NCBI GenBank assembly: GCA_019351975.1
Contig: JABBOG010000037.1
Coordinates: 1 to 38,532, forward strand
Source of the DNA: Acidobacteriota bacterium
GTDB lineage: Bacteria; Acidobacteriota; Terriglobia; Terriglobales; Acidobacteriaceae
Length of the DNA: 38,532 nt
Reading direction: 5' to 3'
In this document: positions 27,664 through 30,221 of the stretch, piece by piece
Layout of the letters: each line of letters starts with the position of its first letter
How positions within the stretch are numbered: position 1 is the stretch's first letter
The notes under the pieces: model-generated
Databases searched by the model: none
What the model saw: the letters and a program-made list of their open reading frames with translations, nothing else
What the model was told of the DNA's origin: nothing
Position numbers and translations under genes: made by a program

Positions 27664-28260
27664 TTAGTCGGTGGCCGTTTCGTGTTCTATCCTGGCTGCG
27701 CTCCACACCTCGTGAGCGGCATCAGCGTTCAAAGCCGCAATCCCAAGTCCCACGATCAGATCGGGCCACCCCGACCGGGTGTAGACCGTCACGATCGCAG
27801 TCGCAATCATCGCGACATTTGCCACGGCATCATTTCGAGCTGACAGAAATGCTGCTCGCGTAAGGCTACCGCTATGCCTTCGGAACCGTACCAGCAACAA
27901 AGCGCAGAACAGATTGATGAGCAAAGCGCCCGTCGCAGTTAAGGAAAGGAAGAGAGGCGCAGGCGGCAACGGGGCATGGATCTTGTCCCACGCGGTCCAT
28001 AGCGTCGCGACGCCTGGAACGAGGAGGATGCAGGCAAGGCCGATGCCGAGCCGTGCTCGATTCCTGCCACCCCACCCAAGCGCGACAGCGATGAGAGTAT
28101 TCAGCGAGGCGTCTTCCAAGAAGTCAACGCTATCCGCAAAGAGCGAGACGGAGCCGATCCTCCGCGCTACCGTAAACTCGACGGCGAAGTAAGCTAGATT
28201 CAACAGAGCGACAAGCAGAACAGTGTTGCGAAGGCTTCGACGCATATTGCGAGCTAGCAT
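27664..28260 (-). CDS. CDF-like cation transporter lacking the cytoplasmic domain
   Basis: A 198-residue six-helix protein of the cation diffusion facilitator type. TM2 reads FADSVDFLEDAS and TM5 reads FLSARNDAVANV. In zinc CDFs these positions are HxxxD and HxxxD; here TM2 is DxxxD (46, 50) and TM5 is SxxxD, with no His. That pattern suggests a different ion or altered coordination. The usual C-terminal cytoplasmic domain is missing. The gene converges on the second RND pump, ending three bases from it. Direct metal export from the cytoplasm is the likely role. Confidence 0.8.
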   Translation of the reverse strand: MLARNMRRSLRNTVLLVALLNLAYFAVEFTVARRIGSVSLFADSVDFLEDASLNTLIAVALGWGGRNRARLGIGLACILLVPGVATLWTAWDKIHAPLPPAPLFLSLTATGALLINLFCALLLVRFRRHSGSLTRAAFLSARNDAVANVAMIATAIVTVYTRSGWPDLIVGLGIAALNADAAHEVWSAARIEHETATD

Positions 28261-28557
28261 AACACTCTACTTGAACGTTACAGAATCGTAACGCCATCTT
28301 ATGTTGGCGCGGATTTCTCGCTCATAGCGCGCCTCTGACTTTAGGATTTGGTCTCGGCTCCGTCCCTGTCCGCTTCTTAAGACTTACTGTTTTCGCCGAC
28401 CTCGATATAGGCTCAACGGCCTCCGATTCTCCGGGGCGTAATAGAGAGGGCCGCGGGCCGCTCTCTGCGACAGGCTTCGGATCGCTCCGGCCTCAGCTGG
28501 GTACGGTCTCTCCGTAGAAATGTACTCTAAAGATTAAGCCTCAGTTCGCAACTTAAA
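28261..28557. other. Leader of the CDF-like gene; one strong hairpin
   Basis: No gene seen. It should hold the minus-strand promoter of the CDF-like gene. At 28443-28466 there is AGAGAG-GGCC, a three-base loop, GGCC-G-CTCTCT: ten pairs with one bulged G, no T-run on either side. A small hairpin TACGG/CCGTA lies at 28502-28516. Confidence 0.4.
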
Positions 28558-28948
28558 GGGTGGAAGCGGTCGCCGCTGGCGGCTGGAGCCGGGAGGAGAC
28601 TTCCGCCCGTAAATGAACTGCTGCATCTTGTTCGCCCGTGAACAAGATGAGAACAGATCTAACGGACGGTGCTCCCGCTCGACGTATGGCAGGGCCATTG
28701 CCATTCGCTACAGTATGTCCGATGATGAGTGTGGGACGGGTACGCACCGTCCTGGGGTGTGGAAACCCCTAACAGAGTAATGCGCGCCTACCAAGGTGTG
28801 TAGAGATTCCCTTGCCTTTGCGGTCGGGGAGCCTGTGACGTATGTCCAGGCCCCTGAAGCTAAAGGTCACAGGAACCGTACTCTGTTCGGTTTTCCAACT
28901 CCCCGATCACGGGTTTATAAGGGCTGTTTGCGGGGGCGTACCGCAGAC
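28558..28948 (+). ncRNA. Candidate large structured RNA of unknown class
   Basis: No convincing protein is encoded. Helices follow one another along the plus strand: GGGTGGAAG/CTTCCGCCC (28558-28608, nine pairs, one U-G, with inner hairpins); CATCTTGTTC/GAACAAGATG (28624-28649, ten pairs); GGACGG/CCGTCC (28734-28752); GGGGT/ACCCC (28754-28769); a junction closed by GGTCGGGGAG/CTCCCCGATC (28822-28908) that encloses CCTGTGAC/GTCACAGG and AACCG/CGGTT; and GTTTGCGG/CCGCAGAC (28926-28948). All four non-Watson-Crick positions are G-U only if the plus strand is the RNA. It may be the 5' ribozyme part of a group II intron without its reverse transcriptase, or a stand-alone RNA. Class not identified. 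Confidence 0.5.
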
Positions 28949-29141
28949 GTTTTCCCTTCGGCCAAGTTGAGGAGTTGCTATTGATCCCTCCTGCGACAAC
29001 GGCATGTACTGTCGACTGCGGCACCAGACGGTCCGCCTATACAGCTTCGATCCTGTACGCCAGCGCCCAATACTCTCCATCCATTACAAGCAACTGCCTG
29101 CCGCCAGTGCGAGATGTTAGTTGTTGCGAAGGGGCATTCGT

Positions 29142-30221
29142 ATGAGTGAAGCAGGCCATCTGATCTTTCACCTGGACGAAGAAGGTAGCCTCTTGCTCCC
29201 AAGGCAGTGCAGCCTTTCCGTTGCCTGTTATGAGTCGGAGGAAGTGCGTGAAGCCGTGACGATGTCTATGGAGCAGATTCTGTATGCCCTCGCACTCGTC
29301 GGTATGGACCTTCGCGCTCTGGACGGAATCACAATGTCCCACGACTGCCGGGCGGACGCAACGGCATTACAGCGTATGCCGGAGGGACAAATTCCTTTGG
29401 AGATGACCGACCGCGCCGACACGATGGAGATGGCTCGGACGGTGGCGGTATGGCGGGGGGAAGAGCTGCGCTTCCATATAGTGTTTCGGTTTGGCATAGG
29501 CGTGATGATGTTCTCGCCCGAGAAAGAGCTGAAAACAGTGGCGCAAGCCTGCATCGCTCACGAAGCCGCGCATGTCGAACACGAAGGCCATCTCTACCGA
29601 ACGTTTCCCGGCATCTATGGCCGTCCGTTGGAGTGCGGAAACCGCTCGCGACAGACCTTCCTGAAAGCAATGGATACGTGGAGCGAGTATGCTGCGTGCC
29701 GGTCCTCGGCAATGTTCCGGCCAGAAGCCGTTTCGGAATTTGAAGGAATCTTATGCCGTGCGCTAGAAGACAGCCTCGCTGCCTCCAAAGAACAGATCGC
29801 CGCCTACCGGGAAGATCGGAACGCCAAAGAAGTCTTTGTCGGAATCCAGCAACTCTTCGGCGACGTGTTCATCCATGCAGGATACTTCCTGGGGCATCTC
29901 GATGGTCTCGAACTGAAGCTCGAAGACGATGCCCCCGGCGTGTCAAAACTGTTCCAGACGCATCCGCAGATTCACTCCTTGATCGTCCGCTTGCGTCGTG
30001 TATTGCATGGAATGTGGCTCAGTGAATATGGGTGGCAGTCCATCGAAGTTTTCGCCCCGATCTACGATCTGATCTGCGAGATGATGGCACTGCACGGATT
30101 CGTCTTTGCGAGACATCCGACGGAATGGCGAGTCGTCATGTGTGAAGAGGAACACAGGCCTAACGACATCCAAAACGCCTTGGCGGACTGGATGGCACGG
30201 CCCGATCCTTCCGAGAAGTGA
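29142..30221 (+). CDS. Unrecognised HExxH protein, putative zinc metallopeptidase
   Basis: A 359-residue soluble protein of no family I can name. It has HEAAHVEHEGH at 140-150 (zinc motif HExxH) and, about 40 residues later, TWSEYAACR with Glu182, a good third ligand in the gluzincin style. No signal peptide or membrane helix is seen, so it should be cytoplasmic. The start at 29142 follows GCGAAGGGG; an upstream GTG/TTG-type extension is less likely. It is convergent with the relaxase gene, lies on the opposite strand from the transfer block, and follows the structured non-coding region. An accessory, antirestriction-like or toxin role is possible; none is shown. Confidence 0.7.
   Translation: MSEAGHLIFHLDEEGSLLLPRQCSLSVACYESEEVREAVTMSMEQILYALALVGMDLRALDGITMSHDCRADATALQRMPEGQIPLEMTDRADTMEMARTVAVWRGEELRFHIVFRFGIGVMMFSPEKELKTVAQACIAHEAAHVEHEGHLYRTFPGIYGRPLECGNRSRQTFLKAMDTWSEYAACRSSAMFRPEAVSEFEGILCRALEDSLAASKEQIAAYREDRNAKEVFVGIQQLFGDVFIHAGYFLGHLDGLELKLEDDAPGVSKLFQTHPQIHSLIVRLRRVLHGMWLSEYGWQSIEVFAPIYDLICEMMALHGFVFARHPTEWRVVMCEEEHRPNDIQNALADWMARPDPSEK

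Follow-up and report, generated by a model that had tools for sequence, protein, structure and literature searches.

A conserved RNA preceding Ti-plasmid traM and other genes is probably an on/off switch for protein synthesis

The closest described relative of the RNA analyzed here is sRNA-Xcc1 (RF02221), which the title of Chen et al. 2011 reportedly calls a trans-acting sRNA. It was detected by northern blot at about 100 nt, and mapping of its ends gave 88 nt (PMC2996969), a finding that speaks for a free sRNA in that branch; in Xanthomonas cassettes it is situated upstream of symE (PMC12444791). A second Rfam family, Atu_Ti1 (RF02506), occurs in the same plasmid tra regions as our RNA (inside traB in locus L055, between traF and traH in L060) but at another place and on the opposite strand. 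Translational riboswitches with anti-Shine-Dalgarno strands set a junction and a pseudoknot in competition with masking of the ribosome site, as we propose below for our RNA; however, the genes downstream of our RNA share no pathway. For the Ti plasmid, one survey counts 47 ncRNAs, one of them a 5' UTR (PMC3738593). In what was accessible of the literature on sRNA-Xcc1, traM leaders and small RNAs, Ti-plasmid riboswitches and symE-integrons, the leader described here did not appear; the ncRNA tables of PMC3738593 may include it.

The window, a 38,532-nt stretch of DNA from a member of the Acidobacteriaceae, is a mobile element carrying a TrwC relaxase-helicase, a TrwB-type coupling protein, a RepB primase, ParB, ArdC, and an RND/cation efflux block. 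A preliminary description had proposed a large structured RNA of unknown class at 28558-28948. The plus strand of this segment had a folding energy of -181.8 kcal/mol (z -5.66) and the minus strand one of -158.2 kcal/mol (z -4.96). In either case 0 of 100 shuffles came as low, so both strands fold far better than shuffled sequence. When 28280-29140 was searched by blastn against 101 genomes (the window's own and 100 relatives), 13 gave matches, and realignment to the matched loci revealed two separate conserved blocks, A (28311-28609) and B (28715-28994), which lie apart in other genomes; the intervening 28610-28714 had a single 28-nt match among the homologous loci compared. The segment 28558-28948 thus begins with the tail of a minus-strand IS110-type left end, continues through a spacer, and ends with a single conserved plus-strand RNA (28734-28948). 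Its original boundaries were therefore wrong, 28558-28609 being part of the separate minus-strand block homologous to IS110-type left ends. Block B is identified, by sequence comparison, with the predicted RNA; the RNA proper is 28734-28948, and the working context extends to the ribosome site at 28969-28974.

Block A (28311-28609, minus strand) is a remnant of an IS110-type left end, a separate element with homologues in L035, L036, L037, and L038. In three of these four loci (L035, L037, and L038), the homologue abuts, judging by position on the minus strand, the 5' end of an ORF with an IS110-like N terminus; the ORF in L037 was confirmed as IS110 (NF033542, 3.4e-55), and no IS110-like ORF was seen next to the copy in L036. 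The transposase is absent from the window, where the next minus-strand ORF of at least 80 aa (27664-28260) encodes a cation efflux protein. Presumably, an IS110-family left end encodes a guide (bridge) RNA, and a stranded copy without its transposase may be of interest. Between the IS110 piece and the promoter of the RNA, positions 28624-28649 form a perfect ten-pair inverted repeat (CATCTTGTTC/GAACAAGATG) with no T run after it.

The features of the leader all lie on the plus strand. Promoter-like elements TTGCCA (28698-28703) and GATGAT (28721-28726; a 4/6 match to TATAAT) are separated by a spacing of 17, and a transcription start is expected near 28734. The conserved leader RNA (28734-28948) was matched over its full length by the family model R1 with 217 bits, the window being one of the 12 R1 training sequences. 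Hairpin P1 (28734-28739/28747-28752, loop GUACGCA) is followed by P2 (28754-28758/28765-28769), whose loop at 28760-28764 (UGGAA) pairs with 28893-28897, and by a variable hairpin P3 (28781-28789/28794-28802), which was seen in the single-sequence fold and is absent from the family consensus. The three-way junction core (28822-28908) is closed by the ten-pair stem P4 (28822-28831/28899-28908), contains P5 (28832-28839/28866-28873) and P6 (28874-28878/28889-28893), and bears the conserved internal loop GUAUGUCCAGG...CUAAAGG; P4, P5, and P6 correspond to helices 4-9 of the covariation set. The J strand and the first part of the 3' strand of P4 occupy 28893-28902, as defined by the window fold and the own-versus-other tests described below, and 28896-28902 (CAACUCC) is fully complementary to 28971-28977 (GGAGUUG). 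The terminal hairpin P7 (28926-28933/28941-28948, loop GGGCGUA; helix 10 of the covariation set) lies within 28919-28958, with a lower stem AAGGG/CCCUU beneath it, constrained folds showing extended stems. A Shine-Dalgarno sequence, GAGGAG (28969-28974), recurs at the equivalent position in the majority of the acidobacterial copies compared; in a fold of the window, it can alternatively pair with CUCC just downstream of the start codon.

The junction with a ten-pair closing stem and two enclosed stems had been read correctly in the preliminary description, and it proved to be the conserved, covariation-supported core. When the window leader is folded by itself, its minimum-energy structure lacks the P4 stem, so the hand reading outdid the energy model here. 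A kissing interaction of the P1 loop (UACGC) with the terminal loop (GCGYA), inspected by eye only, was dropped because most partners are invariant and the changes in L042 and L034 are uncompensated.

A first consensus, built from 12 copies in seven genomes of the window's genus (its own included), had double changes in 11 of 47 pairs. Across 80 distinct rows of a set of 90, the structure was paired in 95.5% of cells and double changes occurred in 28 of 45 pairs, with helix 1, the P1 stem, changing in 5/5 pairs while being 99.7% paired. Double-change cells numbered 426, compared with 113.5 ± 12.7 in shuffles; the alignment was fitted to R1 and hence leans towards the structure, and slid controls reached at most 79. 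The pseudoknot between the P2 loop and the strand after P6 lay outside the model that guided the alignment. It was 97.8% paired and had 43 double-change cells compared with 8.6 ± 2.3 (0/500 shuffles as high; slid controls at most 6), the joint changes of loop and partner including GUGGAA/UUCCA, GUCGAA/UUCGA, UUAGAA/UUCUA, UUAGUA/UACUA, UUUGUA/UACAA, and others. We regard the RNA structure as near certain. Covariation among homologues is strong and supports the proposal of a large structured plus-strand RNA of unknown class. Two of the four wobble pairs offered as strand evidence, 28823/28907 and 28928/28946, fall in covarying helices; the other two, 28561/28605 and 28634/28639, fall outside the RNA. 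A protein-coding reading was rejected, as the reading frames across the 3' part differ between translated homologues.

Searched with RF02221 at E≤10, the 3.9 Mb genome yielded a single match, which fell on the RNA core (28823-28915; 20.8 bits, E 0.78). At the same E value, two of seven plasmid loci were matched (L054, 32.6 bits; L056, 28.8 bits) and five were not; at E≤1, one of six other carrier genomes was matched, on the RNA (G216, 21 bits), and five were not. All four scores stay below the gathering threshold of 53 bits, and the window RNA is not filed under RF02221 because this defining score is not reached. In the opposite direction, R1, built from acidobacterial copies only, matched 4 of 25 gamma copies (two genomes, E<0.05) at the place of RF02221 and left 21 unmatched. 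These reciprocal matches at the same place indicate a homologous three-way junction core, and sequence comparison makes the junction of the window RNA a distant relative of that of sRNA-Xcc1. RF02221 itself was found in 15 of 185 gamma genomes at E≤0.001, in 10 of them above the cut-off.

The gamma copies have their three-way junction core where the window family has it, and their upstream hairpin loop pairs with a core strand much like the pseudoknot of the window family. In contrast, P1 and the GGGGGCGYACC hairpin of the window family were not seen in the gamma copies examined, the internal loop reads GUAUGUCCAGG/CUAAAGG in the window family and AAUACAAUACC/GGGAAAUA in sRNA-Xcc1, and the one RNA is called a trans-acting sRNA whereas the other is read here as a leader. 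In 15 of the 25 gamma copies, the first ORF of at least 45 aa begins 24-42 nt downstream of the core. Given these close ORFs and the complementarities of the gamma copies, upstream and to the ribosome site (quantified below), the 88-nt RNA in the literature seems to represent the core of a leader of this kind. The RNA of the window belongs to a family lacking its own Rfam entry that joins sRNA-Xcc1 in a larger group. Many gamma copies (L191-L215) also carry a terminator-like element, GCGG...GCGGTTTTTTT, between the upstream hairpin and the core, possibly a second level of control.

R1 matched all 12 alphaproteobacterial plasmid loci, preselected by blastn, over the full length of the model (E <1e-22). 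It also matched 88 of 88 loci found with a core pattern (80 genome stretches and 8 viral contigs), some of them partially; this rate arises partly by construction, since the search pattern sits inside the core. The pattern scan of genomes gave at least 119 stretches, of which 80 were scored, and some pattern loci duplicate earlier records (L114, for example, is the training copy L031). By genome, matches to R1 occurred in 8 of 150 from the window's family, in 5 of 297 from across the phylum (all five from the window's family), and in 23 of 190 Alphaproteobacteria, seven of which had 4-7 matches each. In PLSDB, 276 plasmid records, Ti plasmids among them, matched the window RNA at E≤0.01; 41 of these cover at least 80% of the query, 237 are typed conjugative, and the matches listed mostly fall where nothing is annotated. 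Judged from these sequence matches, the predicted RNA recurs in Acidobacteriaceae and Alphaproteobacteria and appears widely transferred. A link to phages consists of two weak phage records and the eight viral contigs found by pattern. Up to 7 divergent copies were found in several small alphaproteobacterial genomes of 0.9-2 Mb (L216-L253); the copies fetched from multi-copy genomes precede different ORFs, an arrangement that looks like a regulon.

Of 95 copies, 84 carry a box with at least a 4/6 match to TATAAT 3-14 nt upstream of P1, most often 7 or 8 nt away, whereas equal control windows gave 5, 13, 17, and 13 of 95; the count covers 95 of the 106 distinct copies, 11 being omitted for short upstream sequence or partial matches. 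With ORF starts taken at the first possible start codon, the TraM cluster (34 loci) starts 5-23 nt after the RNA, the XRE regulator cluster (12 loci) 4-38 nt, seven of eight ORFs in the HD cluster (7 loci) 5-59 nt, RovC-type proteins (6 loci) 29-122 nt, and HExxH ORFs (8 loci) 20-172 nt. Six of the HExxH starts lie at 125-172, and the two nearer ones (20 and 58) belong to long N-terminal extensions. A KhpA-like ORF comes next in several HD loci and was confirmed by Pfam in L029. The Pfam assignments of cluster representatives were Prok-TraM, HTH_3, HD_5, KH_KhpA-B, and RovC_DNA-bd. Some copies have no recognized gene within 60 nt (for example, L026 at 260; L074 and L126 at 219-222). On Ti and related plasmids, the RNA is located between traH and traM, as on an A. 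fabrum Ti plasmid, where it precedes traM; in one Bradyrhizobium copy, an insertion sequence separates the two. Divergent alphaproteobacterial copies precede ORFs whose N termini, judged by eye only, are pilin-like, lipoprotein-like, or outer-membrane-like. Covariation, pseudoknot, promoter-like box, and gene spacing together describe a conserved fold in the 5' leader of a predicted transcript, and the RNA very likely stands in leader position before the downstream genes. Its suggested role as a leader for the HExxH gene was borne out in that a gene of this family follows 8 of 106 distinct copies, while other gene families downstream elsewhere and the promoter-like box at the 5' end give the leader assignment a further basis.

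In the window, the RNA is followed by a short ORF (28975-29145, plus strand) of 56 aa from TTG 28975, although TTG 28981 fits the Shine-Dalgarno sequence better; its stop codon TGA (29143-29145) overlaps the ATG of the HExxH gene at 29142. The clustered downstream proteins include no relative of the 56-aa peptide, so its translation is presumed. The HExxH gene (29142-30221, plus strand) encodes a metalloprotease-like protein of 359 aa with the motif HEAAHVEHEGH, in a family of 8 sequences whose other members are 53-57% identical to it. It had no Pfam match at E≤0.001 (scanned from 29121), and in NCBIfam only HtpX-like matches (E 0.02-0.09, far below the cut-off) and one unrelated match; the family profile had no PDB match at E≤1. 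The protein does match phrog_11743 (5.2e-18), a phrog without assigned function. A HExxH family without a Pfam match is linked to the RNA in Acidobacteriaceae.

We considered that such a leader could act as a two-state switch, which we grade as likely. Transcription would start from the promoter at P1, and the RNA would fold into P1, P2, the variable hairpin, the three-way junction, and the terminal hairpin, with the pseudoknot tying the junction to the P2 loop; the regulated gene would follow with its ribosome site and start codon. In the window, UUUCCAACUCC would serve both as the pseudoknot strand and as the junction stem's 3' half, and it is also complementary to the ribosome site. Formation of the junction and pseudoknot would occupy this strand and leave the gene translatable; if they did not form, the same strand would mask the ribosome site. 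The switched product in the window would be the short ORF, and as its stop overlaps the HExxH start, the HExxH protein would be controlled through translational coupling. We infer both the direction of the switch and this coupling. A ligand or an RNA-binding protein would set the balance between the two folds.

The alternative pairing of the J strand with the ribosome site is supported statistically at the level of sequence. The mean pairing of a copy with its own ribosome site compared with those of other copies was 5.45 vs 4.98 nt in 42 dereplicated copies of 69 (3/5000 permutations), and 5.74 vs 5.02 nt in a divergent set of 39 copies (0/5000), which was not dereplicated and had the wrong strand chosen in one row (L238). 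For 25 sRNA-Xcc1-type copies, not dereplicated, the values were 6.72 own vs 5.26 other for the downstream pairing and 8.12 vs 5.90 for the upstream pairing (0/10000 each). The gain in these tests is just 0.5-2.2 bases, and the copies are related; the J strand and the ribosome site pair exactly over 10 bases in L130 and over 11 in L248. A duplex-energy version with 90 copies was weak (own -16.7 vs -15.1, mean rank 0.36). Pairing of the hairpin 2 loop with the ribosome site was not supported in the alpha/acidobacterial set (own 4.33 vs other 4.44; 4119/5000 permutations as high), and in the gamma copies it was tested solely jointly with the J strand. In the window, constraining P4 gave a fold (-106.5) of lower stability than either the masked fold (-116.9) or the unconstrained minimum (-119.7), which likewise has its ribosome site paired; the energy model takes no account of pseudoknots and prefers masked folds. 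The small own-versus-other gain, the weak energy version, and this preference for masked folds are the reasons why the two-state switch is graded likely while the structure is near certain.

We favor, with reasonable confidence, a self-contained and horizontally spread 5' leader RNA with two mutually exclusive folds that regulates the downstream gene. An overlapping account, which differs in what is sensed, has the leader respond to protein binding (by Hfq, or by a ProQ/FinO- or KhpA-type protein encoded alongside) rather than to a ligand, for instance in autoregulation by KhpA. A ProQ/FinO gene adjoins the RNA on the octopine Ti plasmid, but in only one of 11 annotated plasmid loci, and KhpA genes lie behind the RNA in Acidobacteria, but KhpA-like ORFs follow acidobacterial copies only. 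The TraM protein of A. tumefaciens drops in the absence of Hfq (PMC4201532), which fits post-transcriptional control; this agrees with regulation through the leader but does not prove it. We hold the protein-bound account as a tentative possibility. It is rather unlikely that the RNA is mainly a free trans-acting sRNA that blocks ribosome sites of the GGAG type on other mRNAs and lies close to genes by cassette travel. The northern and mapped sizes of sRNA-Xcc1 (PMC2996969) would suit it, the anti-Shine-Dalgarno strand could work in trans, and several copies occur per genome; yet the distance from RNA to gene start is short in the main families, and the complementarity favors the ribosome site adjoining each copy over those of the other copies.

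The two remaining accounts fare far worse. A conserved DNA site, such as an origin of transfer or a protein-binding site, might be suspected from the tra genes adjoining the RNA on several plasmids and from the many PLSDB records typed conjugative (237/276), but base-pair covariation with G-U pairs on one strand, the promoter-like box at P1, and genome copies before unrelated genes make it very improbable. The preliminary description had also considered domains of a group II intron, and HEARO, GOLLD, or ROOL, and the RNA is indeed large, structured, and on mobile DNA. However, no Rfam family (Rfam 15) reaches its gathering score in the window, none of these four was found in 28250-29250 at E up to 10, and the promoter-like box sits at the 5' end, so this suggestion is unsupported and we give it almost no credence. 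Within 28250-29250, the Rfam matches at E up to 10 were only sRNA-Xcc1 and three snoRNA families, all below cut-offs; on the homologous loci, six matches were obtained, none on the RNA (two cobalamin riboswitches, two Atu_Ti1, ar14, and a tRNA).

In broader terms, we lean somewhat towards a large, new superfamily of leaders that control genes, with sRNA-Xcc1 as a truncated branch, in which each copy would have a private pairing code between its P2 loop and its own ribosome site. If so, the superfamily has spread on conjugative plasmids and through alphaproteobacterial genomes, and the private code would make one sensor core attachable to any gene, that for the Ti-plasmid brake TraM among them. 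The analysis adds an unannotated, strongly covarying RNA to hundreds of plasmid records and suggests a leader core as the identity of sRNA-Xcc1. The RNA lies directly before traM, whose product is the antiactivator that times Ti-plasmid conjugation, and also before other regulators; as a switch, it is open to testing, its two-state pairing being visible in the sequence. A ligand, if found, would tell which signal these mobile elements read.
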